NCBI RefSeq assembly: GCF_037038585.1
Contig: NC_092521.1
Coordinates: 111,316,605 to 111,380,604 of the forward strand
Direction of reading: 5' to 3'
Length of the DNA: 64,000 bases
DNA from: Patagioenas fasciata
Lineage: Eukaryota > Chordata > Aves > Columbiformes > Columbidae
The notes beneath the pieces are model-generated. The model saw only the letters and a program-made list of their open reading frames with translations. It was not told the origin of the DNA and did no database searches. This document shows, piece by piece, positions 612 through 54,558 of the stretch (positions within the stretch are counted from its first letter, which is position 1; every line of letters begins with the position of its first letter). The translations under genes were made by a program, and so were the position numbers.

Positions 612-615
612 GTGA

Positions 616-4375: not shown

Positions 4376-4388
4376 TGCCATCTGGTGG
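4376..4388 (-). promoter_or_regulatory. CTCF core motif in LTR, copy 1
   Basis: The minus-strand sequence CCACCAGATGGCA satisfies every position of the CTCF core consensus CCASYAGRKGGCR. It lies in the U3 half of the LTR, next to a CpG-containing stretch (GCGCCTGCGCGG on the plus strand). CTCF is the vertebrate zinc-finger insulator protein that anchors chromatin loops. Binding is inferred from motif only. Confidence 0.6.
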
Positions 4389-4738
4389 TCTTGAGGAGGG
4401 GTCTTTGGATGAAGGCTCCTTCAGCTTCGTCACAGTGAACTTTTTACCTTTGGCTCATTATGTTGAATTGACTGGGACCCAAGCGGCCAAGTCAATTGAA
4501 ACCAGGCTGGCGCCCCCTTTTGCTCTAAGTCTTTGTTACCTCGTCTCCTCAAGTTTACAGCTGGGTGCAGTAAAACTTCTTATCTTGGCATTCGAGGGGG
4601 TTCTGTTTTTCTTAGCATGAGTCTACATAAAGCTCTAAACTAAGCACTTATTGTGTGCCTAAGCCTTAAAGTGGTAGTTCATTAGTAGGCACCCATTATA
4701 TGTTTAGTTAACCCTTAAAATGGTAGTTCCCTCTATCA

Positions 4739-4972
4739 TGTCCCCTCCCCCCCATCCCCTGTCTCTCACCCCTTCTCCCCCCCTCTTCCCCCCACCCCCT
4801 TCCCCTCTCCCCGCTCTGTCCCCCCTCCCCGTCCTATCCCTCTCTCTTCACTTCCCCTCCCTCCTTCTCCCTCTCTCCCCCCTCCCTCCTCTTTTCCCTA
4901 AAAAAGACTTTCAAGGACACAAAACACAATGGATACAAAGTGTTCCTTTTTATTTTATTATAGGTTCTTGAA
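4739..4972. repeat. Polypyrimidine tract and tail E1 (partner at 8445-8645)
   Basis: About 165 bases that are nearly all C and T directly abut the outer end of the LTR (4739-4906). A tail follows (CAAGGACACAAAACACAATG, then GGATACAAAG and a T/A-rich run) that also follows the CTTCC array at 8541-8645. On the minus strand the T/A run supplies two overlapping AATAAA signals at 4949-4959, a possible 3' end for the minus-strand gene. The tract starts at 14709, 24671, 34621, 44584 and 54559 in the other complete copies. Confidence 0.8.
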
Positions 4973-5648
4973 GGTTGGTTAGTTGCTTGCTGTTGTTGTA
5001 GGTTGCTTTAGGTGAGTTGTTCTATGCTGGTTTGGGTGTGCTGTTCTAGCTAAGTTTAGGACCACCTCGTGGAGCAGCAGGCACCCAGCCCAAATGGCCC
5101 AAAGAAGCCATGGCAAGGGGCCGTGCTCAGCGCTGCAGAGGAAGGCAAAAAACCCCCGGAGACCCTTGCTGTCCCACCTGGGGGAAAAAAAAGCCTTCCT
5201 CCCCCCAGCTGCAGGGCACGAGAGGCCATCTTCCTGGTGCTTGAGCAGCAGGCAGGATCCGAGCCAAAAGGGCCCAGAGGAGCTCTGCAAAGTGGTCATG
5301 CTCAATGCTGCAGAGGAAGGCAAAAAACCCCCGGGGACCAGTGCCAATCTGCCCCGGGGGAAAAAATTCCTTCCTGACCCCAGTGCTGGCGATCGGCTGT
5401 TCCCTGAGCATGTGAGCCAGACCTGGCTCCTTGTCCCACAGGCTGCTCACGCCTCCCAGGACCTGCCCAAGCCCTATCTTATCCTATCCTCTCCTACCCT
5501 ACCCTAGGCTATCCTACCTTGCGCTGGAGCCATCTCCTGGACTTGGGAGAGTGCCCAAAGGCCTCCGACCTAACGGACCTTGGCGGGGGGCAAGAACGCT
5601 TCGGAAAATCCTGCTTCCAGCTGTCCTGTCAAGAATTCATGACCAAAC
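4930..5648 (-). other. Candidate minus-strand terminal exon 3
   Basis: Begins after a strong acceptor (TTTTGTTTTCTCTGCCCAG, ending 5649). Joined to exon 2b it continues the frame (FGHEFLTGQLEAGF...) to a stop at 5570-5572. The AATAAA signals at 4949-4959 would end it. The product is not recognised. Copies 1 to 6 have the same frame and splice sites. Confidence 0.3.
5008..5603. repeat. Segment A2 (partner at 1180-1808)
   Basis: Second member of duplication A. Its pentamer array is short and degenerate (TATCTTATCCTATCC...); copies 3 to 6 have one extra TATCC compared with copies 1 and 2. If the minus-strand gene uses the AATAAA signals at 4949-4959, this segment would be its 3' untranslated region. 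Confidence 0.8.
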
Positions 5649-5849
5649 CTGGGCAGAGAAAACAAAATGCCAGAGATGAAACTTACTGCACGTAACAAGA
5701 GGACACAACAGAGATGACGGAGGAAAACAGCAAGAGGGGAAGGAGAGGAGGAGCAGAGAACACAGAAGGAAACGAGACCCTTGAATCTCACCCAATCAGA
5801 GGAGTAAGAGAAGGCTTCCAAAAGACCAGGCTCTGAATACAAAGCATAC

Positions 5850-5974
5850 CTCGTAAGGTTTTGTCTCCAAACTTTTCCTCTTTTGAAGGCAAGCTGCAGA
5901 TCCCACGCTGTCCTTTGGTCTCCGACGCGGCGTCCTTCGGTCCCCGGCGGTCTCTGGCGCTCTCCAGCGGGCTT
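5850..5974 (-). other. Candidate minus-strand exon 2b
   Basis: A 125-bp exon shape: acceptor after a TG-rich run ending GTGTGCACAG, and a good donor ACGAG|GTATGC. It is open in one frame throughout (KPAGERQRPPGTEGRR...). It ends in phase 2, which fits the next exon. Its 3' part duplicates exon 2a: both contain CAGCTTGCCTTCAA-like sequence. Confidence 0.35.
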
Positions 5975-6105
5975 CTGTGCACACACACACGCACATATCT
6001 GGTTTTTATTTTCTATATCTACACATTTCTATTAACTCTAGAGTCTGTATACACGTCTACAGGGAGAAGGAGAAAAAGTCTGAATTATTTGTGCCATGTG
6101 CAAAC

Positions 6106-6200
6106 CTTTTCCCTTGAAGGCAAGCTCCAGCTCCAGCGCTGCCCTTGGGTGTCCTGGCCGTCTGTGGGGGCTCCTGAGGACTCCTCCCGGTGCTCTGGGG
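6106..6200 (-). other. Candidate minus-strand exon 2a
   Basis: Preceded by an acceptor (CTTCTGGTCGGCAG, ending 6201) that leaves a 110-bp intron after the donor at 6310. A weak donor (AAAAG|GTTTGC) would end it at 6106. If the donor is not used, the exon can run on to an AATAAA at 6005-6010 and stop there. Part of it (about 6106-6160) is a duplicate of exon 2b. Confidence 0.3.
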
Positions 6201-6377
6201 CTGCCGACCAGAAGATGGCAGCGACTCTCCTCGCCTCTTCCCCAGGCCCCAGGGCAGAGGAGATGCCCCGGCATGAGGGCCGGGGCTGCGGGCTGGGAAG
6301 CCGGGCTCACCTGCGGCTCCAGAGCGGCTGCTGCTCCGGCCCGGCCCATCCCGTCCCGTCCCATGCCCCGGAGGCGG

Positions 6378-6860
6378 CTAGTGGCGGCTGCGGGGGCGGC
6401 GCCGCTTGTGCCCAGGCGCCTGCTTGGGGGCTCTGGGAGAGCCCCCGGCCGTCCTGCGGCGCTTCGGGCACCACGGCGCTGGGGGCAGCCCGCCCACGCT
6501 GCTCTTGTGCCCCAGCAGCCCTGCCTGAGGCGGGTCCACGTCCATCGGCTCCGCCTCCTCCCGAGGCGGGTCGATGTCCATGGGCTGCTCCTCCTCCTCC
6601 CGGGGTGGGTCAACCTCCATCGGCTCCTCCTCTCGCCTGGGGGCGGTGCTGCTGCTCCCGGCAGGCTGCCGCCGTTTCTTGGGCGGCGGAGCCATGGGCC
6701 GGGGGGTCCGTGAGCCTCCTCTTCTTTCTTCTGCTCGCTGCGGCCTCTTCTCTCCGAGCGCTGGCGCGGCTGGCACGGCTCTGCTCCAACTGCCACAACA
6801 GAGGCTCGCGGCGTCCCCAGCGAACGCTGCGGTGGCCGGCATGGCGGCCCACAGGGCCAC
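6378..6860 (-). CDS. Candidate small protein with three PM(E/D)(V/I)DPP repeats, copy 1
   Basis: Minus-strand open frame of 160 codons. An in-frame ATG at 6695 gives a more protein-like 105-residue version. From that start: PPPKKRRQ (residues 3-10, NLS-like), then PMEVDPP (25-31), PMDIDPP (38-44) and PMDVDPP (50-56) joined by Arg/Glu-rich linkers, then a basic tail with PKRRR and HKRRRPRSRH. The repeats are also DNA repeats of about 36-39 bp. This suggests a small disordered nuclear protein, but I do not recognise the family. A strong-context ATG at 6882 (AAAATGG) opens another frame (ends 6610) and would compete. A good donor (GCAG|GTGAGC, GT at 6309-6310) lies 67 bases after the stop, which would favour decay of the spliced mRNA. 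Coding status is uncertain. Confidence 0.35.
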   Translation of the reverse strand: MALWAAMPATAAFAGDAASLCCGSWSRAVPAAPALGEKRPQRAEERRGGSRTPRPMAPPPKKRRQPAGSSSTAPRREEEPMEVDPPREEEEQPMDIDPPREEAEPMDVDPPQAGLLGHKSSVGGLPPAPWCPKRRRTAGGSPRAPKQAPGHKRRRPRSRH

Positions 6861-7255
6861 GAGGGCCCCGTCGCGGGGCCATTTTGCTCTGCAGTGCTGT
6901 CAATGCTTATACTTGGTTTGCCTCGCCTCGCCTCGCCTCGCCTCAGGTGGAACCAACTCATTTGCCTTTTGTCTAAAGGAAAGACCGACAGCCGCACATC
7001 TTTTGACAGTATCTTTGACCAGCACGACAAACCTGGCACTTGTATTGCACAATTATCCTGTGCTAAGGGATTCTGCTGTTTCTTTAGTGCTGTACGATGA
7101 AGAATGCAAAAGGTGTTTGAAGAGACAGTGCTCGTTCCCGCGTTTACCGGCACACGGGGCGGGGCCGAGGAGCGACGGCTCTGCCATCCGCTCGTCAGGG
7201 CTGCTGGCTCGGTCTTTGCGGGAGGCGGTAGCGATTGGTCGGCTCTGTGTCCAGC

Positions 7256-7304
7256 ATGGCGGCCAAGGCGAGCAGCAGCCCCTCTCAGCTGCTGCTGCCG
7301 CTCG
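7256..7304 (+). other. Candidate plus-strand first exon 1a
   Basis: An ATG in good context (AGCATGG) opens MAAKASSSPSQLLLPLG and reaches a donor CTCG|GTAAGC (GT at 7305) after 49 bases, leaving one base over (phase 1). The GC box and inverted CCAAT box lie 90 and 18 bases upstream. Copies 3 and 6 have a silent GCC to GCG change in codon 3. Exon 1a could be joined to the exon at 8198. Confidence 0.4.
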
Positions 7305-7519
7305 GTAAGCGGCGCCGCGACGCTTCCGCGCTCTCCCGGTGCCCGGGCGGGGCTGCGCTGGGGCCCGGCCTGTGCCCGGCGGGCGGGCGGGCGGGGAGGG
7401 AGGCCGAGGCCGCTTGCGGGCACGCGTGGGTGGCGCGGTCGGCGCCGCCGCTTGGCGGGCAGCTGGAGCGGGGGGAGCGGGTGTGCCCGCCGGGTCCGGC
7501 GGTGTCGGCCGGTGCGGGA

Positions 7520-7546
7520 AGATCCCGTCGAAGATGTTACAGGCTT
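7520..7546 (+). other. Candidate plus-strand alternative first exon 1b
   Basis: ATG at 7534 (context AAGATGT) opens MLQA and ends at a near-perfect donor CTT|GTGAGT (GT at 7547-7548), also in phase 1. No acceptor precedes it, so it would be a separate first exon at the edge of the CpG island. Confidence 0.4.
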
Positions 7547-7559
7547 GTGAGTATTATTT

Positions 7560-8190
7560 CTGCTTGTTGTTGCTGTTTAAGTTTGTGTTTCCTGAGGGAA
7601 AACTTGCTGTAAGGTCTGTAAGCAAAACGTGCTTGTTTTTTTGGAATGAATGTTTGCCAGCTGAGTAGTTTCTGCCTTGGACTGAATCCTTGGGGGTGAT
7701 CTGTTCGGGGCAGCCCTGTCATAGAGTAGCAGTTGCGTGACTGATCCTTGTCATCGGGTTCCTAACTGGTAGCCTTTATTTGGCGTGGGTTGTTGTGTTG
7801 AACTTCTCCGTAGTTCGTTTGCTTTTCCATTTCCTGAAGGTCTAGGCAAAGATTAAACAAATGAGTGGACTTAAAGAGAAGTATTTGTTATTTGGCCATG
7901 CCATGTTGCTATTTGAAACCTGTTTTGATTCTTGGTGATATTCAAGAAGTTGTCGCGACTCAGAGGGCAAATCTTGATGTGCTGAGCAGAAGAGTGCAAT
8001 GGATCTTTTTGGTTGCCAGGTAGCTTTCCTGACCCATGTGGCCAGTTGATCGAGATTCCACTGCACGCCTGAGAGAGTGAGAAAGATCCCCTCCCTCCTT
8101 AAAGAATGACCGTGATGCTAATGGGATGAAATACGCTTGTTGATCAGCCTGGATGTCAGTCAAGCTCTGTCCCATCTCTGCCCCCCTTCC
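7560..8190. other. Unique intronic sequence
   Basis: About 630 bp of balanced composition between candidate exons 1b and 2. It is not related to any other part of the unit, and contains no repeat or open frame of note. Confidence 0.5.
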
Positions 8191-8197
8191 TCGACAG

Positions 8198-8283
8198 GTC
8201 CCATCTGTGGGCAGAGCGGTCAGAATGTCCCTGGCTCTCAGACCAGAGCAATTACAAACATTAGTTCTGTGCTGGGGTGTTAG
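8198..8283 (+). other. Candidate plus-strand exon 2 with CPIC motif
   Basis: Acceptor after CCCCCCTTCCTCGACAG (AG at 8196-8197). Joined to exon 1b the frame reads MLQACPICGQSGQNV, creating a Cys-x-x-Cys pair across the junction; joined to 1a it reads LLPLGPICGQ. The frame stops at 8281-8283, so the product would be only 32 or 44 residues unless splicing continues from an unseen donor. CAG|GTATGG near 8400 is a donor candidate. CPxC with a glycine after it resembles a zinc-ribbon or zinc-finger knuckle, but a single pair does not make a domain. Confidence 0.35.
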
Positions 8284-8444
8284 CTCTTGTTCTCAACCTA
8301 ATTCCAAAGAATGACTGTGCGAGCTGTGAAAAAGAAAGGTTTCTAACCGCGTGAAGAAAATCAGTTCGCTTTCGGCGAAAAGAGCACAATTTCTTTCAGG
8401 TATGGAGCCCTCAGGGCTCTGTCAGGGCTTTCTTTTCTCCTCTG

Positions 8445-8540
8445 CCTTCCCTTCCCTTCCCTTCCCTTCCCTTCCCTTCCCTTCCCTTCCCTTCCCTTCC
8501 CTTCCCTTCCCTTCCCTTCCCTTCCCTTCCCTTCCCTTCC
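8445..8540. repeat. CTTCC pentamer array, copy 1 (96 bp)
   Basis: Pure tandem CTTCC (GGAAG on the other strand), the longest in the window. It is followed by tail E2 (8541-8645), the partner of E1. Confidence 0.95.
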
Positions 8541-8700
8541 ACCTTCCCTCTCCCTTCCTTCACTCTTCCCTAAAAACCACTTCCCAGGACACAAAACGCA
8601 ATGGATACAAGTGTTTCTATTTGATTTTGTTTTATTTTCTTTTTTAATTTACTTCCTTTGATGTTATTTCATGTCATTTCTGTTTCTCACTCTGTTTCAG

Positions 8701-8771
8701 AGCCAGTGCTCACAATCCTTAACACAAGCCCACGTGTAGCCAGGAGCAGGCTGATGCGTTCTTCAGTTTAG
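8701..8771 (+). other. Candidate plus-strand exon 3
   Basis: A strong acceptor (TTTCTCACTCTGTTTCAG, ending 8700) is followed by a short open stretch (EPVLTILNTSPR...) that stops at 8769-8771. The exon lies just after tail E2. It could be the last exon of the plus-strand transcript, coding or not. Confidence 0.3.
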
Positions 8772-8810
8772 CTTGAACAAACAGCCCTTGCAGGCTGGCA
8801 AAGGCAAGTC

Positions 8811-9181
8811 CCAGAGCTGCAGAGAGCAGCAGCAGGAATAGAGGCCAAGCTTTCCCTGGTTGTTGAAGAGGGAGAACCTTGAGAATGAGGCGCGGGCCTG
8901 ACCATGCACAAAAGAAGAGGTATGTGGTACTGTGGGATCTTTTCCGAAGCATCACATGTAGCGATGACAAGCAGACGTTTTGCCTTCCACAGCTTGTTTT
9001 GCTGCTGTGCTTCTCGGGCAGGGATGCACGAGAAGCGCTCTGGTCCCTGCCAGGCGCTGGTGTTGCCCGCAGGGAGAGCTGCCGAGTGGCAGCTGCGAAT
9101 CCTTCCTGTTCCTGACAGGACACCAGTGGCTGCTCCAAAGCACTGGGTCCCCATGCAACATCTCTGCATCCTGTTGCCTAC
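8811..9181. repeat. Segments B2 and C (partners at 2942-3253 and 1807-1885)
   Basis: 8811-9100 is the partner of B1. The adjoining 9105-9181 matches 1807-1885, with GGACACCAGTGG, CCAAAGCACTG and CATCCT in order, so two modules that are 1 kb apart elsewhere in the unit are adjacent here. Confidence 0.75.
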
Positions 9182-10310
9182 ATCTGCCTTCTTTGTCTGT
9201 AACTTGTTTGGGTTTTGCCTGTTTCTTTCTACCTTGTTTGTTTTTTTGTTGTGGTGGTGGTGGTGGTGGTGTTTCTCTTGTTGCTGTTGTTCTGGTTTTG
9301 TTGGGGCTTTTGAAGTTTGTTTCGTTTGGTTGGTTTAGGTCAGTTTCTATGAGTTGGTTTTGGTAGGCTTTTTGAGAGTGGTTGTTCGAAGGTGGTTGTT
9401 TGACGCTGTATTACGTTGTTGGTAGGTTGTGTGTTCGTAGGTCACTGAAGGCGGGTTGTTTTAGGTTAAGGTTTGTTAAGTTTGGTTTAGGTTGGCGGTC
9501 TTAGCTGCTTGTTTCAGGTTTGATGGTTTAGCTTGGTTTGGGTTGGTTAGTTTAGGTGGGCGGGTTCAGGTTGTTTGATGTGATTTTCTTAGCGCTGCTC
9601 TGTGTGGTTTAGCTTAGGAGGTTTCTTTTTCTTGGTTTTGCTGGGTTCTTTGGTTGGTGCTGTTTTCTGAGGATTCTTTAGCACTGGTTGTGTTAGTTTG
9701 GTTTAGGTTTCTGGTTTTAGTAGCTTGGTTCAGTTTGTTGCGGTCGTTTGAGGTTGGTTTGAGGCAGGTTCTTTGAGGGTGGTTGTGAGAGGCTGGTTGT
9801 TGAAGGCTGGTGGGTTGAGGTTGCTTGATGCAGGTGATTTTTGGTTGAAGTTGTCTTCCGTCGGTTGTTGTAGGTGGCGTATCTGAAGCCGTTTTCATGG
9901 AGGCTGTTTTCTTTAGTTTGGTTGAGGTTTGTTTAGATGATTTTAAGTTGGGGGTGGGTTGGTTATTTGAGGTTGTTTCTTTTCAGTAAGCAGTTTAGGT
10001 GGGTTGGTGGGTGTCTGTGTTTTTAGGTAGGTTGGTTTAGGCAGGTTTGGTTTACATTGTTTAGGTCGCTTGAAGGGTTTCTGTTAAGGTTGGTTCAGGT
10101 TGTTTGGTTTAGGTTGGTTTAGTTATTTCCTGGTAGGTTGTTTAGGGCAGTGTTATGCACGGTGCATGTTTTGAAGATGGGTTCCTTCAGGCTGGGGTGG
10201 CTTAGATTGGTTGTTGAGGGTGCTTTAGGTGGTTTGGTTAGATGTACATTGTGTTTTGTTGGTTTTAGGTTGTGTCTGGATGCTTTGGATGTAACTGCAA
10301 TCTCGCTGGG
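9180..10310. repeat. G/T-rich block across the copy 1/2 junction
   Basis: The largest G/T-rich block, about 1.1 kb. It includes a TGG trinucleotide run (9249-9271) and D2 (9705-9917). TTTAGGTTGG words are densest here, and the strand bias is strong throughout. Confidence 0.85.
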
Positions 10311-11606
10311 ACATGTGTCCCCCCACTAATCACCAGGCTCGATTGGGCTGTTTCTGCTGTCTCGGCAGATGTCCCCTTCCTCCTTCCCTGCTCCACGTGT
10401 TTCCCTGCCTTGCTCAAAGAGGATGACGTTCCCCGCTAGAGGCGAACCATTGCTAGGTCAAGGGTATACGGTAGCTGCGCTGTGCTTGAGAACCTCCCTC
10501 CAAACAAGCTCAGGGTCCGTTAGGAGGAGAACCTGGGGTAGTCAAGCTTCCAAGACTGCAGGCACATCCAAGTGAGACACTGCCTGGGGTAGGGTGGCTG
10601 GTGGTTGGGTTTTTGTTGTTGAGGTTTTTTAGGGTGTTTTAGCTTTGTTGTTGAAGTTGAGTTGATCTAGATTGGTTTTTAGCTTGGTCATTGTAGGCTG
10701 GTTTCAGTGGTTCTATTTAGCTTTGGGTTGTTTGCTTTAGGTCATTTTGGTCAGGTTATGTCATTGGGTTTCGTATTTTTGAGGCTGGTTTAGATCGGTC
10801 GCTTTAGGTAGTTTTATCCTTTATTAGATTGGTTTTAAGTTGTTTGAGATTGTTTAATGGTTATTTTAGGTTAAGATTGGTTGGTTTCAGTTTGTTTAGC
10901 TTGTTTGGTTCTAGGTTGCTTAAGGTTGGTTGAGAAATGCCGGTTTATGTAGTTTTAGATTGTTTTAGGTAGGATTTTTTTAGATCATTTGGTTTAGGTA
11001 GGTTTGTTTTAGGGTGTTAAGGTTGGTTTATTTTGTTTGGTTTAGGTAATTTGTTGTAGATTGTTTAAGATTCTGTTTAGGTTGTTGGTGGCTGATTGAA
11101 GTTTTTTAAGGCAGACTGGTTTAGCTTCTTTAAGGTTGGTTTAGGTGAGCTGTTCTATGCTGGTTTGGGTAGGCTGTTCTAGCTAAGTTTAGGGCCAGCT
11201 CGTGGAGCAGCAGGCACCCAGCCCAAATGGCGCAAAGAAGCCGTGGCAAGGGGCCGTGCTCAGCGCTGCAGAGGAAGGCAAAAAACCCCCGGAGACGCTT
11301 GCTGTCCCACTTGGGGGAAAAAAAAAGCCTTCCTCCCCCCAGCTGCAGGGCACGAGAGGCCATCTCCCTGGTGCTTGAGCAGCAGGCAGGATCCGAGCCA
11401 AAAGGGCCCAGAGGAGCTCTGCAAAGTGGTCATGCTCAATGCTGCAGAGGAAGGCAAAAAACCCCCGGGGACCAGTGCCAATCTGCCCCGGGGGAAAAAA
11501 TTCCTTCCTGACCCCAGTGCTGGCGATCGGCTGTTCCCTGAGCATGTGAGCCAGACCTGGCTCCTTGTCCCACAGGCTGCTCACGCCTCCCAGGACCTGC
11601 CCAAGC

Positions 11607-11693
11607 CCTATCCCATCCTATCCTATCCCATCCTATCCTATCCCATCCTATCCTATCCCATCCTATCCTATCCCATCCCATCCCATCCTATCC
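11607..11693. repeat. TATCC/CATCC pentamer array, copy 2 (87 bp)
   Basis: Regular alternation of two TATCC-type pentamers with one CATCC, ending in three CATCC in a row. Confidence 0.95.
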
Positions 11694-13559
11694 TCCCTTG
11701 AGCTGGAGTCATCTCCCGGACTCCCGAGAGTGCTCAAATGCCCCTGACCTGATGGACCTTGGCGGGGACTAGAATGCTTCCTGTGCCTGGTGGGACACCA
11801 GTGGTTGTCCCAAAGCACTGCAATCCCTTGCAACCCCTTTACATCCTAGTTCTTACGGCTCCTGAGCCTGGCTCCACAGGGGATGAAGATGGTGAGCTCT
11901 GCAGTGCTCCTCCCGAAGGAATTCCCTTGGTCTTGCCACTGCTATCCAGCTGAAAAGGATTTCCAGCCATCAGATAAGCTTGGCAGGTGGCCCTGGCAGT
12001 CCGTGTGCCATTCCTTCCCAATGCAGCAAGTGACTTGTGCTGCCCAACGCAGCAAGTGGCGTGCTGCTACGCTGTCATTTATGGTGACGCTGTCTGCTCG
12101 GGAAGAAGTCCTGAATGGTTTTGTGCTGTTTACCGTCTCTTTCCCTGGACTTGATAGCTCTTTTCCTGCTTTGGCTTTCATCCTTGATATCGTCCTTGAA
12201 GAGCTCTGCAGTGCTCCTCAAGAAGAAATTCCCTTTGTCTTGCCACTGCTACCCAGCTGAAAAGGATTTCCATCCATGAGCTGAGGTTTGAAGGTGGCCC
12301 TGGCAGCAGATTGTCTTACAGTGGAGAACCTCCAGCAGCCTCACGCAAGCTCTTCCTCCCTCAGCCCCTGCCCTGTGATGCCACCAGCTCCTCAAGTGCT
12401 TCCTCCGGGATGTGTTGGGGCTGCCCCCGGGCCAGCTCTGGCAGTGGACACGGGACCCGGCTGCTCCTTTTGATCCTGCCCAGGGCATTGTGAGCTCTGC
12501 GTTGCCGGGTGCTGGCATTGTGACGTGGGGGTGACAGAGCCCCACGTGTGCAGCCCCGCCCGCCCCCAATCCGCCCAGCACCCTATGGAGGAAGCCTTTG
12601 GGGTGCTGGCCCCAGATCAGTCCCTGAGCTGAAGAGGCCCAGGAGGCTGTCCCTGCCCTTGGTGTGCATTCGCTGGGCAGAGCTGCTGGGTGTCCCTGAG
12701 GCCTCCTCTGCCGCTCGGCTCCCCAGAACAAACCTCCTGCTGTTTCTCTTCTCTCAGGCAGAAACCAGCCCTGCAGCCTCGAGGCCACCCTAGTATAGCC
12801 ATCTCCTCTCTGCCCCACATAAAATGCCCACTGGGTCCCACAGCAAGGAAGACCAGGGACTCAATCCAGCTGGACACAAACCCTTTCCTGAGGCATAAAG
12901 AGAGTGATTTTGAGAGCTGCAGAGAGCAGCAGCAGGAATAGAGGCCAAGCTTTCCCTGGTTCGTAAGAGGGAGAACCTTGAGAATCAGGCGCAGGACTGA
13001 CCATGCCCAAAAGAAGAAGAAGAAGTAGAAGATGATGATGACGGGTGTGGTACCGTGGGATGTTTTCCAGAGCTACGTGACACGTAGCGACAACGAGCGG
13101 ACTTTTTGCCTTCCACAGCTTGTTTTGCTGCTGTGCTTCTTGGGCAGGGATGCACGAGAAGCGCTTTGGTCCCTGCCAGGCGCTTGTGTTGCCCGCAGGG
13201 AGAGGTGCCGAGTGGCAGCTGCGGATGTTGCAGCCGGGCTGGAGCCCTTCCAAGCAGGGGCTGTTTTGGTGGAGGGAGGTTTTTGGTTTTGGTAGCTTGG
13301 TTGAGGTTGTTGAGGTGGTTGGAGGTGGTTTGTTTGAGGCAGGTTCTTCTTTGAGGGTGGTTGTGGGAGGCTGGGTTGTTGAAGGCTGGTGGGTTTAGGT
13401 AGCTTGATGTAGGTGATACTTGGTTGAAGTTGTTTTCCCTTGGTTGTTTTAGGTGGGGTATGTGAAGTTGTTTTCATTGAGGTTGTTTCCAGTATTTTGT
13501 TTGAGGTTGGTGTAGGTGGTTTGGTTGAGGTTGTTGAGATGGTTTGAGGTTGGGTGGCT

Positions 13560-14708
13560 TAGGTTGGTTCTGTTATAAAGCTTCAGTTGCCATGGGGACT
13601 CGAACCCATGACTGGAGAGTCTGTTTACCCTTCTCCCACTTGCATGCAGTCATTAGCGGGTCCATCCTGGCTCCAGTGACCGGGACGCAACAGAAGGCTC
13701 ACTCAGGGTTACTCGATCTACCCCCAAGATCGCTAGCGGCAGACCCCCTTCTGGTGGAGTCAAGTCAGTAGCCCCCTTAGGTAGGTGCCCATTTACAGCA
13801 ATATGGGGAATCTGGCCATGCGGAGGCTTCCCTCGCCAGTTGCTGGCCCCCATGTTACAGGCCCACGTTACAGTAAAACAAAAGCATACCTTATCCGCTT
13901 AATTCAAAAAGTCGTTGTCTGCCCCCGCGGTGACCAGCCGGAGTGGAACGGAGCCCCTGTGAAATAAAAGGTGCGGGACACGTCTGGGAGGTCCGTTTCT
14001 CTCAGGCGGTCCGCACAGCCGGGCAGAGCTTGTCCCTTCGTGGTCGCCAAAATTGATATGTGGAAACAACTTTACAGCCTATAAAGTCATAAAACTTTAC
14101 AACGTGCAAGCCTATAAAGCGGGTACGTTTATCTGATATCGGGCGCAAGGGGGATCGTTCCACCATTCATGCGCACCTTCTAACACTATGAGGTGTGTTT
14201 AAATACAGCAAGGTGTTAGGTATTCATAATGACCCCAGGAACGCCTATACTTATTCATAACCTTTCCCCGCTTCTTATTAAAATGAGTCCCAGGTCATAA
14301 TTTCCAAAGCCTCCTCCTAGACAGCTCCCTGTTGCGCCTGCGCGGTGCCATCTGGTGGTCTTGAGGAGGGGTCTTTGGATGAAGGCTCCTTCAGCTTCGT
14401 CACAGTGAACTTTTTACCTTTGGCTCATTATGTTGAATTGACTGGGACCCAAGCGGCCAAGTCAATTGAAACCAGGCTGGCGCCCCCGTTTGCTCTAAGT
14501 CTTTGTTACCTCGTCTCCTCAAGTTTACAGCTGGGTGCAGTAAAACTTCTTATCTTGGCATTCGAGGGGGTTCTGTTTTTCTTAGCATGAGTCTACATAA
14601 AGCTCTAAACTAAGCACTTATTGTGTGCCTAAGCCTTAAAGTGGTAGTTCATTAGTAGGCACCCATTATATGTTTAGTTAACCCTTAAAATGGTAGTTCC
14701 CTCTATCA
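13560..14708 (-). mobile_element. Endogenous retrovirus remnant, copy 2
   Basis: LTR 14054-14708; primer-binding site 14032-14049. Same extent and state as in copy 1. Confidence 0.75.
14346..14358 (-). promoter_or_regulatory. CTCF core motif in LTR, copy 2
   Basis: Identical 13-mer and orientation, 9970 bp from the copy-1 site. Confidence 0.6.
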
Positions 14709-18265: not shown

Positions 18266-18426
18266 CTCTTGTTCTCAACCTAATTCCAAAGAATGACTGT
18301 GCGAGCTGTGAAAAAGAAAGGTTTCTAACCGCGTGAAGAAAATCAGTTCGCTTTCGGCGAAAAGAGCACAATTTCTTTCAGGTATGGAGCCCTCAGGGCT
18401 CTGTCAGGGCTTTCTTTTCTCCTCTG

Positions 18427-18502
18427 CCTTCCCTTCCCTTCCCTTCCCTTCCCTTCCCTTCCCTTCCCTTCCCTTCCCTTCCCTTCCCTTCCCTTCCCTT
18501 CC
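18427..18502. repeat. CTTCC pentamer array, copy 2 (76 bp)
   Basis: Pure array. Confidence 0.95.
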
Positions 18503-23521: not shown

Positions 23522-24670
23522 TAGGTTGGTTCTGTTATAAAGCTTCAGTTGCCATGGGGACTCGAACCCATGACTGGAGAGTCTGTTTACCCTTCTCCCA
23601 CTTGCATGCAGTCATTAGCGGGTCCATCCTGGCTCCAGTGACCGGGACGCAACAGAAGGCTCACTCAGGGTTACTCGATCTACCCCCAAGATCGCTAGCG
23701 GCAGACCCCCTTCTGGTGGAGTCAAGTCAGTAGCCCCCTTAGGTAGGTGCCCATTTACAGCAATATGGGGAATCTGGCCATGCGGAGGCTTCCCTCGCCA
23801 GTTGCTGGCCCCCATGTTACAGGCCCACGTTACAGTAAAACAAAAGCATACCTTATCCGCTTAATTCAAAAAGTCGTTGTCTGCCCCCGCGGTGACCAGC
23901 CGGAGTGGAACGGAGCCCCTCTGAAATAAAAGGTGTGGGACACGTCTGGGAGGTCCGTTTCTCTCAGGCGGTCCGCACAGCCGGGCAGAGCTTGTCCCTT
24001 CGTGGTCGCCAAAATTGATATGTGGAAACAACTTTACAGCCTATAAAGTCATAAAACTTTACAACGTGCAAGCCTATAAAGCGGGTACGTTTATCTGATA
24101 TCGGGCGCAAGGGGGATCGTTCCACCATTCATGCGCACCTTCTAACACTATGAGGTGTGTTTAAATACAGCAAGGTGTTAGGTATTCATAATGACCCCAG
24201 GAACGCCTATACTTATTCATAACCTTTCCCCGCTTCTTATTAAAATGAGTCCCAGGTCATAATTTCCAAAGCCTCCTCCTAGACAGCTCCCTGTTGCGCC
24301 TGCGCGGTGCCATCTGGTGGTCTTGAGGAGGGGTCTTTGGATGAAGGCTCCTTCAGCTTCGTCACAGTGAACTTTTTACCTTTGGCTCATTATGTTGAAT
24401 TGACTGGGACCCAAGCGGCCAAGTCAATTGAAACCAGGCTGGCGCCCCCTTTTGCTCTAAGTCTTTGTTACCTCGTCTCCTCAAGTTTACAGCTGGGTGC
24501 AGTAAAACTTCTTATCTTGGCATTCGAGGGGGTTCTGTTTTTCTTAGCATGAGTCTACATAAAGCTCTAAACTAAGCACTTATTGTGTGCCTAAGCCTTA
24601 AAGTGGTAGTTCATTAGTAGGCACCCATTATATGTTTAGTTAACCCTTAAAATGGTAGTTCCCTCTATCA
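23522..24670 (-). mobile_element. Endogenous retrovirus remnant, copy 3
   Basis: LTR 24016-24670; primer-binding site 23994-24011. The leader has two bases shared only with copy 5. Confidence 0.75.
24308..24320 (-). promoter_or_regulatory. CTCF core motif in LTR, copy 3
   Basis: Identical 13-mer and orientation, 9962 bp from the copy-2 site. Confidence 0.6.
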
Positions 24671-33471: not shown

Positions 33472-34620
33472 TAGGTTGGTTCTGTTATAAAGCTTCAGTT
33501 GCCATGGGGACTCGAACCCATGACTGGAGAGTCTGTTTACCCTTCTCCCACTTGCATGCAGTCATTAGCGGGTCCATCCTGGCTCCAGTGACCGGGACGC
33601 AACAGAAGGCTCACTCAGGGTTACTCGATCTACCCCCAAGATCGCTAGCGGCAGACCCCCTTCTGGTGGAGTCAAGTCAGTAGCCCCCTTAGGTAGGTGC
33701 CCATTTACAGCAATATGGGGAATCTGGCCATGCGGAGGCTTCCCTCGCCAGTTGCTGGCCCCCATGTTACAGGCCCACGTTACAGTAAAACAAAAGCATA
33801 CCTTATCCGCTTAATTCAAAAAGTCGTTGTCTGCCCCCGCGGTGACCAGCCGGAGTGGAACGGAGCCCCTGTGAAATAAAAGGTGCGGGACACGTCTGGG
33901 AGGTCCGTTTCTCTCAGGCGGTCCGCACAGCCGGGCAGAGCTTGTCCCTTCGTGGTCGCCAAAATTGATATGTGGAAACAACTTTACAGCCTATAAAGTC
34001 ATAAAACTTTACAACGTGCAAGCCTATAAAGCGGGTACGTTTATCTGATATCGGGCGCAAGGGGGATCGTTCCACCATTCATGCGCACCTTCTAACACTA
34101 TGAGGTGTGTTTAAATACAGCAAGGTGTTAGGTATTCATAATGACCCCAGGAACGCCTATACTTATTCATAACCTTTCCCCGCTTCTTATTAAAATGAGT
34201 CCCAGGTCATAATTTCCAAAGCCTCCTCCTAGACAGCTCCCTGTTGCGCCTGCGCGGTGCCATCTGGTGGTCTTGAGGAGGGGTCTTTGGATGAAGGCTC
34301 CTTCAGCTTCGTCACAGTGAACTTTTTACCTTTGGCTCATTATGTTGAATTGACTGGGACCCAAGCGGCCAAGTCAATTGAAACCAGGCTGGCGCCCCCT
34401 TTTGCTCTAAGTCTTTGTTACCTCGTCTCCTCAAGTTTACAGCTGGGTGCAGTAAAACTTCTTATCTTGGCATTCGAGGGGGTTCTGTTTTTCTTAGCAT
34501 GAGTCTACATAAAGCTCTAAACTAAGCACTTATTGTGTGCCTAAGCCTTAAAGTGGTAGTTCATTAGTAGGCACCCATTATATGTTTAGTTAACCCTTAA
34601 AATGGTAGTTCCCTCTATCA
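33472..34620 (-). mobile_element. Endogenous retrovirus remnant, copy 4
   Basis: LTR 33966-34620; primer-binding site 33944-33961. Same extent as copy 1. Confidence 0.75.
34258..34270 (-). promoter_or_regulatory. CTCF core motif in LTR, copy 4
   Basis: Identical 13-mer and orientation, 9950 bp from the copy-3 site. Confidence 0.6.
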
Positions 34621-41481: not shown

Positions 41482-41568
41482 CCTATCCCATCCTATCCTA
41501 TCCCATCCTATCCTATCCCATCCTATCCTATCCCATCCTATCCTATCCCATCCCATCCCATCCTTTCC
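41482..41568. repeat. TATCC/CATCC pentamer array, copy 5 (87 bp)
   Basis: Interrupted type. The last pentamers carry a private TTTCC. Confidence 0.95.
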
Positions 41569-43434: not shown

Positions 43435-44583
43435 TAGGTTGGTTCTGTTATAAAGCTTCAGTTGCCATGGGGACTCGAACCCATGACTGGAGAGTCTGTT
43501 TACCCTTCTCCCACTTGCATGCAGTCATTAGCGGGTCCATCCTGGCTCCAGTGACCGGGACGCAACAGAAGGCTCACTCAGGGTTACTCGATCTACCCCC
43601 AAGATCGCTAGCGGCAGACCCCCTTCTGGTGGAGTCAAGTCAGTAGCCCCCTTAGGTAGGTGCCCATTTACAGCAATATGGGGAATCTGGCCATGCGGAG
43701 GCTTCCCTCGCCAGTTGCTGGCCCCCATGTTACAGGCCCACGTTACAGTAAAACAAAAGCATACCTTATCCGCTTAATTCAAAAAGTCGTTGTCTGCCCC
43801 CGCGGTGACCAGCCGGAGTGGAACGGAGCCCCTCTGAAATAAAAGGTGTGGGACACGTCTGGGAGGTCCGTTTCTCTCAGGCGGTCCGCACAGCCGGGCA
43901 GAGCTTGTCCCTTCGTGGTCGCCAAAATTGATATGTGGAAACAACTTTACAGCCTATAAAGTCATAAAACTTTACAACGTGCAAGCCTATAAAGCGGGTA
44001 CGTTTATCTGATATCGGGCGCAAGGGGGATCGTTCCACCATTCATGCGCACCTTCTAACACTATGAGGTGTGTTTAAATACAGCAAGGTGTTAGGTATTC
44101 ATAATGACCCCAGGAACGCCTATACTTATTCATAACCTTTCCCCGCTTCTTATTAAAATGAGTCCCAGGTCATAATTTCCAAAGCCTCCTCCTAGACAGC
44201 TCCCTGTTGCGCCTGCGCGGTGCCATCTGGTGGTCTTGAGGAGGGGTCTTTGGATGAAGGCTCCTTCAGCTTCGTCACAGTGAACTTTTTACCTTTGGCT
44301 CATTATGTTGAATTGACTGGGACCCAAGCGGCCAAGTCAATTGAAACCAGGCTGGCGCCCCCTTTTGCTCTAAGTCTTTGTTACCTCGTCTCCTCAAGTT
44401 TACAGCTGGGTGCAGTAAAACTTCTTATCTTGGCATTCGAGGGGGTTCTGTTTTTCTTAGCATGAGTCTACATAAAGCTCTAAACTAAGCACTTATTGTG
44501 TGCCTAAGCCTTAAAGTGGTAGTTCATTAGTAGGCACCCATTATATGTTTAGTTAACCCTTAAAATGGTAGTTCCCTCTATCA
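43435..44583 (-). mobile_element. Endogenous retrovirus remnant, copy 5
   Basis: LTR 43929-44583; primer-binding site 43907-43924. Leader variant of the copy-3 type. Confidence 0.75.
44221..44233 (-). promoter_or_regulatory. CTCF core motif in LTR, copy 5
   Basis: Identical 13-mer and orientation, 9963 bp from the copy-4 site. Confidence 0.6.
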
Positions 44584-48133: not shown

Positions 48134-48294
48134 CTCTTGTTCTCAACCTAATTCCAAAGAATGACTGTGCGAGCTGTGAAAAAGAAAGGTTTCTAACCGC
48201 GTGAAGAAAATCAGTTCGCTTTCGGCGAAAAGAGCACAATTTCTTTCAGGTATGGAGCCCTCAGGGCTCTGTCAGGGCTTTCTTTTCTCCTCTG

Positions 48295-48385
48295 CCTTCC
48301 CTTCCCTTCCCTTCCCTTCCCTTCCCTTCCCTTCCCTTCCCTTCCCTTCCCTTCCCTTCCCTTCCCTTCCCTTCCCTTCCCTTCC
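48295..48385. repeat. CTTCC pentamer array, copy 5 (91 bp)
   Basis: Pure array, three pentamers longer than in copies 2 and 4. Confidence 0.95.
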
Positions 48386-49023
48386 ACCTTCCCTCTCCCT
48401 TCCTTCACTCTTCCCTAAAAACCACTTCCCAGGACACAAAACGCAATGGATACAAGTGTTTCTATTTGATTTTGTTTTATTTTCTTTTTTAATTTACTTC
48501 CTTTGATGTTATTTCATGTCATTTCTGTTTCTCACTCTGTTTCAGAGCCAGTGCTCACAATCCTTAACACAAGCCCACGTGTAGCCAGGAGCAGGCTGAT
48601 GCGTTCTTCAGTTTAGCTTGAACAAACAGCCCTTGCAGGCTGGCAAAGGCAAGTCCCAGAGCTGCAGAGAGCAGCAGCAGGAATAGAGGCCAAGCTTTCC
48701 CTGGTTGCTGAAGAGGGAGAACCTTGAGAATGAGGCGCGGGCCTGACCATGCACAAAAGAAGAGGTCTGTGGTACTGTGGGATCTTTTCCGAAGCATCAC
48801 ATGTATCAATGACAAGCAGACGTTTTGCCTTCCACAGCTTGTTTTGCTGCTGTGCTTCTCGGGCAGGGATGCACGAGAAGCGCTCTGGTCCCTGCCAGGC
48901 GCTGGTGTTGCCCGCAGGGAGAGCTGCCGAGTGGCAGCTGCGAATCCTTCCTGTTCCTGACAGGACACCAGTGGCTGCTCCAAAGCACTGGGTCCCCATG
49001 CAACATCTCTGCATCCTGTTGCC

Positions 49024-50155
49024 TACATCTGCCTTCTTTGTCTGTAACTTGTTTGGGTTTTGCCTGTTTCTTTCTACCTTGTTTGTTTTTTTGTTGTGGT
49101 GGTGGTGGTGGTGGTGTTTCTCTTGTTGCTGTTGTTCTGGTTTTGTTGGGGCTTTTGAAGTTTGTTTCGTTTGGTTGGTTTAGGTCAGTTTCTATGAGTT
49201 GGTTTTGGTAGGCTTTTTGAGAGTGGTTGTTCGAAGGTGGTTGTTTGACGCTGTATTACGTTGTTGGTAGGTTGTGTGTTCGTAGGTCACTGAAGGCGGG
49301 TTGTTTTAGGTTAAGGTTTGTTAAGTTTGGTTTAGGTTGGCGGTCTTAGCTGCTTGTTTCAGGTTTGATGGTTTAGCTTGGTTTGGGTTGGTTAGTTTAG
49401 GTGGGCGGGTTCAGGTTGTTTGATGTGATTTTCTTAGCGCTGCTCTGTGTGGTTTAGCTTAGGAGGTTTCTTTTTCTTGGTTTTGCTGGGTTCTTTGGTT
49501 GGTGCTGTTTTCTGAGGATTCTTTAGCACTGGTTGTGTTAGTTTGGTTTAGGTTTCTGGTTTTAGTAGCTTGGTTCAGTTTGTTGCGGTCGTTTGAGGTT
49601 GGTTTGAGGCAGGTTCTTTGAGGGTGGTTGTGAGAGGCTGGTTGTTGAAGGCTGGTGGGTTGAGGTTGCTTGATGCAGGTGATTTTTGGTTGAAGTTGTC
49701 TTCCGTCGGTTGTTGTAGGTGGCGTATCTGAAGCCGTTTTCATGGAGGCTGTTTTCTTTAGTTTGGTTGAGGTTTGTTTAGATGATTTTAAGTTGGGGGT
49801 GGGTTGGTTATTTGAGGTTGTTTCTTTTCAGTAAGCAGTTTAGGTGGGTTGGTGGGTGTCTGTGTTTTTAGGTAGGTTGGTTTAGGCAGGTTTGGTTTAC
49901 ATTGTTTAGGTCGCTTGAAGGGTTTCTGTTAAGGTTGGTTCAGGTTGTTTGGTTTAGGTTGGTTTAGTTATTTCCTGGTAGGTTGTTTAGGGCAGTGTTA
50001 TGCACGGTGCATGTTTTGAAGATGGGTTCCTTCAGGCTGGGGTGGCTTAGATTGGTTGTTGAGGGTGCTTTAGGTGGTTTGGTTAGATGTACATTGTGTT
50101 TTGTTGGTTTTAGGTTGTGTCTGGATGCTTTGGATGTAACTGCAATCTCGCTGGG
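49024..50155. repeat. G/T-rich block across the copy 5/6 junction
   Basis: Uninterrupted TGG run. Confidence 0.85.
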
Positions 50156-51451
50156 ACATGTGTCCCCCCACTAATCACCAGGCTCGATTGGGCTGTTTCT
50201 GCTGTCTCGGCAGATGTCCCCTTCCTCCTTCCCTGCTCCACGTGTTTCCCTGCCTTGCTCAAAGAGGATGACGTTCCCCGCTAGAGGCGAACCATTGCTA
50301 GGTCAAGGGTATACGGTAGCTGCGCTGTGCTTGAGAACCTCCCTCCAAACAAGCTCAGGGTCCGTTAGGAGGAGAACCTGGGGTAGTCAAGCTTCCAAGA
50401 CTGCAGGCACATCCAAGTGAGACACTGCCTGGGGTAGGGTGGCTGGTGGTTGGGTTTTTGTTGTTGAGGTTTTTTAGGGTGTTTTAGCTTTGTTGTTGAA
50501 GTTGAGTTGATCTAGATTGGTTTTTAGCTTGGTCATTGTAGGCTGGTTTCAGTGGTTCTATTTAGCTTTGGGTTGTTTGCTTTAGGTCATTTTGGTCAGG
50601 TTATGTCATTGGGTTTCGTATTTTTGAGGCTGGTTTAGATCGGTCGCTTTAGGTAGTTTTATCCTTTATTAGATTGGTTTTAAGTTGTTTGAGATTGTTT
50701 AATGGTTATTTTAGGTTAAGATTGGTTGGTTTCAGTTTGTTTAGCTTGTTTGGTTCTAGGTTGCTTAAGGTTGGTTGAGAAATGCCGGTTTATGTAGTTT
50801 TAGATTGTTTTAGGTAGGATTTTTTTAGATCATTTGGTTTAGGTAGGTTTGTTTTAGGGTGTTTAGGTTGGTTTATTTTGTTTGGTTTAGGTAATTTGTT
50901 GTAGATTGTTTAAGGTTCTGTTTAGGTTGTTGGTGGCTGATTGAAGTTTTTTAAGGCAGACTGGTTTAGCTTCTTTAAGGTTGGTTTAGGTGAGCTGTTC
51001 TATGCTGGTTTGGGTAGGCTGTTCTAGCTAAGTTTAGGGCCAGCTCGTGGAGCAGCAGGCACCCAGCCCAAATGGCGCAAAGAAGCCGTGGCAAGGGGCC
51101 GTGCTCAGCGCTGCAGAGGAAGGCAAAAAACCCCCGGAGACGCTTGCTGTCCCACCTGGGGGAAAAAAAAAGCCTTCCTCCCCCCAGCTGCAGGGCACAA
51201 GAGGCCATCTTCCTGGTGCTTGAGCAGCAGGCAGGATCCGAGCCAAAAGGGCCCAGAGGAGCTCTGCAAAGTGGTCATGCTCAATGCTGCAGAGGAAGGC
51301 AAAAAACCCCCGGGGACCAGTGCCAATCTGCCCCGGGGGAAAAAATTCCTTCCTGACCCCAGTGCTGGCGATCGGCTGTTCCCTGAGCATGTGAGCCAGA
51401 CCTGGCTCCTTGTCCCACAGGCTGCTCACGCCTCCCAGGACCTGCCCAAGC

Positions 51452-51543
51452 CCTATCCTATCCTATCCTATCCTATCCTATCCTATCCTATCCTATCCTA
51501 TCCTATCCTATCCTATCCTATCCTATCCTATCCTATCCTATCC
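51452..51543. repeat. TATCC pentamer array, copy 6 (92 bp, pure)
   Basis: Uninterrupted like copy 4 but two pentamers longer, so it has changed length since the two copies shared this allele. Confidence 0.95.
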
Positions 51544-53409
51544 TCCCTTGAGCTGGAGTCATCTCCCGGACTCCCGAGAGTGCTCAAATGCCCCTGACAT
51601 GATGGACCTTGGCGGGGACTAGAATGCTTCCTGTGCCTGGTGGGACACCAGTGGTTGTCCCAAAGCACTGCAACCCCTTGCAACCCCTTTACATCCTAGT
51701 TCTTACGGCTCCTGAGCCTGGCTCCACAGGGGATGAAGATGGTGAGCTCTGCAGTGCTCCTCCCGAAGGAATTCCCTTGGTCTTGCCACTGCTATCCAGC
51801 TGAAAAGGATTTCCAGCCATCAGATAAGCTTGGCAGGTGGCCCTGGCAGTCCGTGTGCCATTCCTTCCCAATGCAGCAAGTGACTTGTGCTGCCCAACGC
51901 AGCAAGTGGCGTGCTGCTACGCTGTCATTTATGGTGACGCTGTCTGCTCGGGAAGAAGTCCTGAATGGTTTTGTGCTGTTTACCGTCTCTTTCCCTGGAC
52001 TTGATAGCTCTTTTCCTGCTTTGGCTTTCATCCTTGATATCGTCCTTGAAGAGCTCTGCAGTGCTCCTCAAGAAGAAATTCCCTTTGTCTTGCCACTGCT
52101 ACCCAGCTGAAAAGGATTTCCATCCATGAGCTGAGGTTTGAAGGTGGCCCTGGCAGCAGATTGTCTTACAGTGGAGAACCTCCAGCAGCCTCACGCAAGC
52201 TCTTCCTCCCTCAGCCCCTGCCCTGTGATGCCACCAGCTCCTCAAGTGCTTCCTCCGGGATGTGTTGGGGCTGCCCCCGGGCCAGCTCTGGCAGTGGACA
52301 CGGGACCCGGCTGCTCCTTTTGATCCTGCCCAGGGCATTGTGAGCTCTGCGTTGCCGGGTGCTGGCATTGTGACGTGGGGGTGACAGAGCCCCACGTGTG
52401 CAGCCCCGCCCGCCCCCAATCCGCCCAGCACCCTATGGAGGAAGCCTTTGGGGTGCTGGCCCCAGATCAGTCCCTGAGCTGAAGAGGCCCAGGAGGCTGT
52501 CCCTGCCCTTGGTGTGCATTCGCTGGGCAGAGCTGCTGGGTGTCCCTGAGGCCTCCTCTGCCGCTCGGCTCCCCAGAACAAACCTCCTGCTGTTTCTCTT
52601 CTCTCAGGCAGAAACCAGCCCTGCAGCCTCGAGGCCACCCTAGTATAGCCATCTCCTCTCTGCCCCACATAAAATGCCCACTGGGTCCCACAGCAAGGAA
52701 GACCAGGGACTCAATCCAGCTGGACACAAACCCTTTCCTGAGGCATAAAGAGAGTGATTTTGAGAGCTGCAGAGAGCAGCAGCAGGAATAGAGGCCAAGC
52801 TTTCCCTGGTTCGTAAGAGGGAGAACCTTGAGAATCAGGCGCAGGACTGACCATGCCCAAAAGAAGAAGAAGAAGTAGAAGATGATGATGACGGGTGTGG
52901 TACCGTGGGATGTTTTCCAGAGCTACGCGACACGTAGCGACAACGAGCGGACTTTTTGCCTTCCACAGCTTGTTTTGCTGCTGTGCTTCTTGGGCAGGGA
53001 TGCACGAGAAGCGCTTTGGTCCCTGCCAGGCGCTTGTGTTGCCCGCAGGGAGAGGTGCCGAGTGGCAGCTGCGGATGTTGCAGCCGGGCTGGAGCCCTTC
53101 CAAGCAGGGGCTGTTTTGGTGGAGGGAGGTTTTTGGTTTTGGTAGCTTGGTTGAGGTTGTTGAGGTGGTTGGAGGTGGTTTGTTTGAGGCAGGTTCTTCT
53201 TTGAGGGTGGTTGTGGGAGGCTGGGTTGTTGAAGGCTGGTGGGTTTAGGTAGCTTGATGTAGGTGATACTTGGTTGAAGTTGTTTTCCCTTGGTTGTTTT
53301 AGGTGGGGTATGTGAAGTTGTTTTCATTGAGGTTGTTTCCAGTATTTTGTTTGAGGTTGGTGTAGGTGGTTTGGTTGAGGTTGTTGAGATGGTTTGAGGT
53401 TGGGTGGCT

Positions 53410-54558
53410 TAGGTTGGTTCTGTTATAAAGCTTCAGTTGCCATGGGGACTCGAACCCATGACTGGAGAGTCTGTTTACCCTTCTCCCACTTGCATGCAGT
53501 CATTAGCGGGTCCATCCTGGCTCCAGTGACCGGGACGCAACAGAAGGCTCACTCAGGGTTACTCGATCTACCCCCAAGATCGCTAGCGGCAGACCCCCTT
53601 CTGGTGGAGTCAAGTCAGTAGCCCCCTTAGGTAGGTGCCCATTTACAGCAATATGGGGAATCTGGCCATGCGGAGGCTTCCCTCGCCAGTTGCTGGCCCC
53701 CATGTTACAGGCCCACGTTACAGTAAAACAAAAGCATACCTTATCCGCTTAATTCAAAAAGTCGTTGTCTGCCCCCGCGGTGACCAGCCGGAGTGGAACG
53801 GAGCCCCTGTGAAATAAAAGGTGCGGGACACGTCTGGGAGGTCCGTTTCTCTCAGGCGGTCCGCACAGCCGGGCAGAGCTTGTCCCTTCGTGGTCGCCAA
53901 AATTGATATGTGGAAACAACTTTACAGCCTATAAAGTCATAAAACTTTACAACGTGCAAGCCTATAAAGCGGGTACGTTTATCTGATATCGGGCGCAAGG
54001 GGGATCGTTCCACCATTCATGCGCACCTTCTAACACTATGAGGTGTGTTTAAATACAGCAAGGTGTTAGGTATTCATAATGACCCCAGGAACGCCTATAC
54101 TTATTCATAACCTTTCCCCGCTTCTTATTAAAATGAGTCCCAGGTCATAATTTCCAAAGCCTCCTCCTAGACAGCTCCCTGTTGCGCCTGCGCGGTGCCA
54201 TCTGGTGGTCTTGAGGAGGGGTCTTTGGATGAAGGCTCCTTCAGCTTCGTCACAGTGAACTTTTTACCTTTGGCTCATTATGTTGAATTGACTGGGACCC
54301 AAGCGGCCAAGTCAATTGAAACCAGGCTGGCGCCCCCTTTTGCTCTAAGTCTTTGTTACCTCGTCTCCTCAAGTTTACAGCTGGGTGCAGTAAAACTTCT
54401 TATCTTGGCATTCGAGGGGGTTCTGTTTTTCTTAGCATGAGTCTACATAAAGCTCTAAACTAAGCACTTATTGTGTGCCTAAGCCTTAAAGTGGTAGTTC
54501 ATTAGTAGGCACCCATTATATGTTTAGTTAACCCTTAAAATGGTAGTTCCCTCTATCA
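53410..54558 (-). mobile_element. Endogenous retrovirus remnant, copy 6
   Basis: LTR 53904-54558; primer-binding site 53882-53899. Same extent as copy 1. Confidence 0.75.
54196..54208 (-). promoter_or_regulatory. CTCF core motif in LTR, copy 6
   Basis: Identical 13-mer and orientation, 9975 bp from the copy-5 site. The copy-7 site would fall just beyond the window end. Confidence 0.6.

Follow-up and report, generated by a model that had tools for sequence, protein, structure and literature searches.

Macrosatellites with CTCF sites are, in the literature cited here, mammalian and mostly located on the X chromosome. The tandem repeats DXZ4, FIRRE and ICCE are described as carrying paired CTCF-YY1 sites that are hypomethylated when bound (PMC6985041); DXZ4 is X-linked and consists of 3-kb units (PMC3218863), and the motifs of Dxz4 are reported to be unidirectional, those of human DXZ4 forming two sets in opposite orientation (PMC5899087). 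The account of the FIRRE repeat R0 includes a section on binding of CTCF and RAD21 (PMC4820808). At human 1q23.3, a tRNA array is reported to be built of units that are 98% identical, with a small ERVK fragment in each unit and long terminal repeats (LTRs) flanking the array (PMC4041453). Here we analyze a 64,000-nucleotide stretch of contig C2 of the pigeon Patagioenas fasciata (C2:111316605-111380604; hereafter, the window), which lies in a homogenised macrosatellite of ~10-kb units on this contig of 170,063,604 bases. Every full unit in the window contains two high-scoring CTCF motifs, one in an LTR (21.8 bits, 6/6) and one at a CpG island (20.3 bits, 6/6). The best overall explanation, to which we assign a probability of about 0.5, is a two-site macrosatellite in which the island site would be favoured and which, if it folds chromatin at all, would act as a two-way boundary cluster. 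The array is named in no title or abstract opening found in the open-licence literature, and C2 is probably an autosome, judging by its 170 Mb against the size of the avian Z.

The pigeon array resembles DXZ4, FIRRE and the 1q23.3 array in layout. Copies of mammalian transposable elements that carry CTCF sites are dispersed insertions, whereas the pigeon LTR was multiplied by tandem amplification of a host unit; D4Z4, which an earlier interpretation of the window's letters (hereafter, the sequence-only reading) had named, is a macrosatellite with CTCF sites in each unit. D4Z4 differs in containing a conserved open reading frame (PMC3218863), and what the pigeon LTR shares with the mammalian elements is the spread of CTCF motifs by repeat families (PMC6979391, PMC9902604, PMC7156512). 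Common to DXZ4 and the pigeon locus are a large tandem array, a CTCF-type motif in each unit and an internal GC-/CpG-rich element of the promoter type (PMC3218863), but the pigeon units are ~10 kb long, occupy a 170-Mb contig and, where regular, hold two opposite predicted sites, one of them LTR-derived. FIRRE and Firre likewise have similar numbers of CTCF sites in either orientation (PMC5899087), although their repeats lie within an X-linked gene for a long noncoding RNA. The 7.3-kb GC-rich unit of the 1q23.3 array, which is reported to bind CTCF, is comparable too, but it contains tRNA genes, none of which were found in the pigeon window, and the parts of the 1q23.3 report at hand do not attribute its CTCF site to an LTR (PMC4041453).

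The window comprises six full units (positions 4084 to 63858) and one partial unit at each end, the next LTR starting at 63859. A complete unit runs from LTR end to LTR end over ~9.97 kb (4084..14053, no strand assigned). Units U1-U5 were aligned with one another; they measure 9950-9975 bases, and any two of them differ at 0.07-0.30% of aligned positions. With 99.7-99.9% identity among these five and 11 LTR-anchored copies in the block to which the window belongs, the array is large and homogeneous. The word CCACCAGATGGCA occurs in six exact copies, all on the minus strand, at 4376, 14346, 24308, 34258, 44221 and 54196, with spacings of 9970, 9962, 9950, 9963 and 9975 bases, so the CTCF core match in each unit and the period of ~9.96 kb proposed in the sequence-only reading both hold. 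These six positions are the only matches in the window to the consensus CCASYAGRKGGCR (mean 0.16 in window shuffles), and the 73-base context around the word is identical in all six. Scored with the human CTCF matrix JASPAR MA0139.1, the 19-bp site with its flanks (site 1, AGACCACCAGATGGCACCG, minus strand, approximately mid-LTR; 4373..4391 and also 14343, 24305, 34255, 44218 and 54193) attains 21.84 bits out of 28.67, with a per-position p of 2.8e-8. A low score once the flanking matrix positions are included, which the sequence-only reading had declared beforehand to be fatal to it, was thus not observed (21.8 of 28.7 bits).

The six motif copies cannot be counted as six independent events because they are all copies of one sequence, and the fair chance test is accordingly a single unit. 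A 19-bp score at the level of site 1 arose in 1 of 400 resampled units and in 17 of 1500 (1.1%) when local composition was kept. Tandem duplication accounts for the co-orientation of the copies, which adds no evidence of its own. Apart from sites 1 and 2, no match to the matrix within the unit exceeds 13.3 bits. Motif searches covered the 1.454-Gb assembly (359 contigs); a reversed-pattern control (4 matches versus 399 for the 13-mer) was rejected as a measure of enrichment because it is too low, the reversed word containing CpG, which is rare in vertebrates. An NRF1-like word, GCGCAGGCGC, adjoins site 1 in the LTR (4364-4373, minus strand).

Site 1 lies, as the sequence-only reading had it, inside an LTR: a 655-bp element with TGATAG...ATATCA ends on the minus strand (4084..4738; identified from sequence and blastn), with further blastn-detected minus-strand copies at 14054-14708, 24016-24670, 33966-34620, 43929-44583 and 53904-54558 and a partial one at 63859-64000. 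The six complete copies are 99.8-100% identical by blastn and show 84-85% identity to two LTRs on contig C1, outside the arrays (L001, L008). A truncated retroviral remnant read from the sequence follows on the same strand (3608..4083, left edge approximate); within it are a primer-site-like stretch (4062-4079) and, beginning with the ATG at 3881-3883, a short open frame. The TG...CA ends, the adjoining primer-site-like stretch and the copies elsewhere in the genome identify the element as a retroviral LTR. The primer stretch may be complementary to tRNA-Arg, an assignment left unconfirmed by a genome search for the end of that tRNA, which gave no matches.

A flank-anchored search that required exact flanks and left the 13 motif bases free found 106 LTR copies, a lower bound, of which 100 were listed. 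Among the matches listed, 17 copies lie outside the arrays (C1 3, C2 1, C4 1, C47 12); 11 of the 17 fit the CTCF consensus and six do not. On C1, three of eight inspected 13-mer places, drawn from 22 C1 matches listed, lie in LTR relatives (L001, L008 and, in part, L006), and five do not. Because members of the LTR family outside the arrays carry the motif, it belongs to the family and came in with the LTR; judged by these comparisons, the motif is supplied by the LTR, in agreement with the sequence-only reading. The 12 copies on C47, a contig that may be rich in retroviral insertions, fall between 43.8 and 58.3 Mb.

The second site (CGACCAGAAGATGGCAGCG, plus strand, 6205..6223 and also 16175, 26142, 36092, 46055 and 56030) occurs once in each of the six full units and scores 20.26 bits over all 19 matrix positions (p 9.8e-8); it was missed by the consensus search because one core position mismatches. 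Two sites of at least 20.2 bits were found in none of 1500 resampled units, and at least one in 3.5%. Within a unit, sites 1 and 2 point apart, with 1.83 kb between them, whereas the island site and the LTR site of the neighbouring unit point towards each other over ~8.1 kb. A single orientation in the style of mouse Dxz4 is thus not what the window displays, with site 1 on the minus and site 2 on the plus strand in six of six units: the claim of uniform orientation stands for the LTR motif (6/6 minus) and fails for the array as a whole.

A flank-anchored search with the 19 bases left free found 83 copies of site 2, all on C2, 82 of them identical and one with a single change. This invariance was rejected as proof of selection, 689 of 1361 (51%) 19-bp windows of the island being equally invariant across 11 loci. 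Site 2 overlaps the YY1-like core AAGATGGC and sits at the left margin of a CpG island (6185..7684, no strand; CpG observed/expected 0.66-1.07 in 300-base bins). It might then be a YY1 site, or another promoter site, that scores by accident on the CTCF matrix, which would leave the LTR site as the only CTCF site and would be compatible with an array that does not bind CTCF effectively. The YY1 core, the position at the island and the single departure from the CTCF core consensus speak for this interpretation, but accidental similarity fits poorly with a score of 20.26 bits over 19 positions, and we regard it as unlikely, if by no means far-fetched.

The two sites differ in the CpG decay of their surroundings. 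Between array copies, CpG-type transitions affect 66 of 1355 CpG cells in the island, as against 60 of 217 for the LTR and 393 of 2025 for the remainder of the unit, while other substitutions outside CpGs are similar (2.7%, 3.3% and 2.6%, respectively). This comparison set the window unit against 11 of 20 fetched loci; because these have a shared ancestry, their pooled counts lack independence. L013 contributed no island cells. Left out were the loci without a full unit (L012, L014, L017, L019), those with short (L020) or rearranged (L023, L024, L028) units, and the locus from the window's own block (L027). Eighteen of the 20 were chosen for holding the 13-mer and are therefore uninformative on the conservation of site 1. 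Compared locus by locus, the island differs significantly from the rest of the unit in all three loci tested (L009, 7/139 versus 53/212, p 4e-7; L015, p 4e-5; L025, p 1e-5). The pattern suggests a germline state in which methylation spares the island but covers the LTR; retention of the island's CpGs could also owe something to selection.

The same data bear on the possibility that the array is inert for CTCF, its motifs being passengers under trimethylated histone H3 lysine 9 (H3K9me3) and DNA methylation, with neither site effectively bound. Prevention of aberrant CTCF binding by H3K9me3 has been reported (PMC10762014) and would be the mechanism here. The CpGs of the LTR and of the non-island part of the unit do decay quickly, and four adjacent units of block B (see below) share one change that lowers site 1 to 17.5 bits, indicating that loss is tolerated. 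Yet CpGs are retained in the island and lost in the rest of the unit, which is not what germline silencing of the entire array would lead one to expect, and the unit contains a 104-amino-acid frame with a protein-isoform annotation. An inert array is a serious possibility, although we stop short of calling it probable.

Beyond the window, the LTR-anchored copies on C2 form three blocks, 83 copies in total, with orientations -, + and -: block A, with 45 minus-strand copies (96.816-97.961 Mb), block B, with 27 plus-strand copies (100.784-101.387 Mb), and the window's own block C, with 11 minus-strand copies (111.291-111.391 Mb). The dozens of sites envisaged in the sequence-only reading are thus reached by the three blocks together and not by the window's block. 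These orientations hold for LTR copies with exact flanks, diverged copies, such as those in the short units of locus L020 (see below), falling outside the count; another diverged copy (L023, 100.680 Mb), directly left of the plus-strand block B, is on the minus strand and has 88.9% identity to the window's LTR, compared with 95.7-97.2% for the LTRs of the other sampled block A and B loci. The genome 13-mer search gave further minus-strand matches near block B at 100.697 and 100.751 Mb. Site 2 follows the blocks in the opposite sense (block A 42 copies, plus; block B 26, minus; block C 11, plus), with three more in inverted units beside block C and one at 115.43 Mb.

The rule of one strong motif per site and unit is not absolute outside the window: the 13-mer is intact in 79 of the 83 anchored LTR sites, the other four being the weakened block B units, and the short units of L020 in block A (C2:97637000-97646999), 3.84 kb in length, retain the LTR site and lack site 2. 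Their junctions fall between two repeats internal to the unit, at unit coordinates 917-1436 and 7050-7557, which are ~96% alike. Three inverted units directly right of block C, spaced at 8.3 kb, retain site 2. In the two of these that were read (L049, L050; C2:111.41-111.43 Mb), only ~45 bp of the LTR edge is left, which indicates that the LTR was lost there and rules out an empty LTR site. Both are joined to sequence that is also present in L021 and L023. No LTR match was found within the 3.0 kb read at the stray unit at 115.43 Mb. Left of block C (111.00 to 111.28 Mb), one of eight short samples had a unit match (147 bases, 76%) and seven had none, and the five samples taken between 111.45 and 111.70 Mb also gave none.

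Plus-strand 13-mers in block A were considered as inverted LTRs, and this was ruled out for the four that were read (L012, L014, L017, L019), where CCACCAGATGGCA lies in different, non-LTR sequence on the opposite strand and scores 16.5 bits. Larger amplicons in the block A region thus carry a third CTCF-like site. Blocks A and B lie ~3 Mb apart in opposite orientations, which suggests a large inversion or an inverted duplication.

The block orientations can be read against the convergent CTCF rule for loops (PMC5899087, PMC6985041), which is reasonable to apply in birds given that duck topologically associating domain boundaries are reported to be enriched in predicted CTCF sites, convergent pairs being over-represented (PMC7787181). 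Under this rule, convergent pairs are formed by the LTR sites of blocks B and C, 9.9 Mb apart, and by the island sites of blocks A and B, 2.8 Mb apart. Folding driven by the LTR sites would be expected to yield a loop between blocks B and C, and folding driven by the island sites a loop between blocks A and B. Three oriented blocks and two rival sites thus amount to a natural experiment in which one Hi-C map could tell the sites apart.

The model of the sequence-only reading takes the LTR site as functional and the array as a folding platform that works one way, in the manner of Dxz4, and that would have arrived at this architecture independently. It can draw on the strength of the LTR site and its core without CpG, on the co-orientation of the 11 anchored copies in block C and of those within each other block, and on the facing LTR sites of blocks B (+) and C (-), 9.9 Mb apart. 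What it cannot readily accommodate is the opposite site, which has a nearly equal score (20.3 bits), is present in every window unit and in most units elsewhere, and totals 83 copies on C2; in addition, the LTR looks germline-methylated, blocks A and B are oppositely oriented, and the diverged L023 LTR on the minus strand stands beside block B. A one-way bank of sites does not agree with these observations, and we consider this model very improbable.

We favour instead the two-site macrosatellite. In the course of events that we infer, a retrovirus from an LTR family with a CTCF-like site in mid-LTR would have inserted into an ancestral unit; the provirus was truncated, and the unit was amplified and rearranged into at least three blocks, the LTR family, the truncation and the blocks being observed and the order of events conjectural. 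The LTR motif would have been copied passively with the unit, so that each regular unit came to hold two strong, diverging CTCF-like sites 1.83 kb apart. Of the two, the island site would probably be bound more often, given that the island, unlike the LTR, looks unmethylated in the germline. The two opposite strong motifs and the contrasting CpG decay lead us to read the array, should it fold chromatin at all, as a cluster of boundary elements working in both directions and not as a one-way platform of the Dxz4 type.

Several points weigh against this interpretation. The bit scores derive from a human matrix; the core of site 1 has no CpG, so that DNA methylation alone need not block its binding; and site 2 departs from the strict CTCF consensus at one core position, shows an invariance that is weak evidence of selection, and could be a YY1 site instead of a CTCF site. 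Some LTR-bearing units lack site 2, as indicated by the counts of anchored LTR sites and anchored site 2 in block A (45 versus 42) and block B (27 versus 26). The retention of CpGs in the island could partly reflect GC-biased gene conversion.

A bolder combination would have an autosomal avian macrosatellite converge on the DXZ4/FIRRE design, with a hypomethylated CTCF/YY1 site at the island paired, in each regular unit, with an opposite CTCF site donated by a retrovirus, and with the blocks contacting each other over megabases; taken jointly, these propositions are improbable. Were they true, a bird array outside the sex chromosomes would separate such architecture from X inactivation. On its sequence features, the array is a possible avian counterpart to DXZ4 and similar human folding arrays.

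Among the other features of the unit, the 104-amino-acid open frame (6378..6692 and equivalents, minus strand), with repeated ME/MDVDPP motifs, matches the C-terminal part of the uncharacterized Patagioenas fasciata protein isoform X6 (154 amino acids) with 99% identity over the full query. The frame has four unnamed relatives (P0002-P0005), shorter or of similar length. Pfam yielded no family for it at E up to 1 and one sub-threshold match (E 0.68) for five unit frames, and a PDB search with it gave no match. Seven window copies of a 7SK-RNA-like sequence lie on the plus strand (327..645 and also 10287, 20249, 30204, 40162, 50132 and 60092); they are full-length matches to Rfam RF00100 at 137-142 bits (gathering score 35), and the sequence was also detected in L023, L024 and L028, three of the seven loci scanned. 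In the one copy aligned (137 bits), many pairs are non-standard and, contrary to what would be expected of a gene, there is no U-run at the end of the model; the sequence, degraded and amplified with the unit, looks like a pseudogene.

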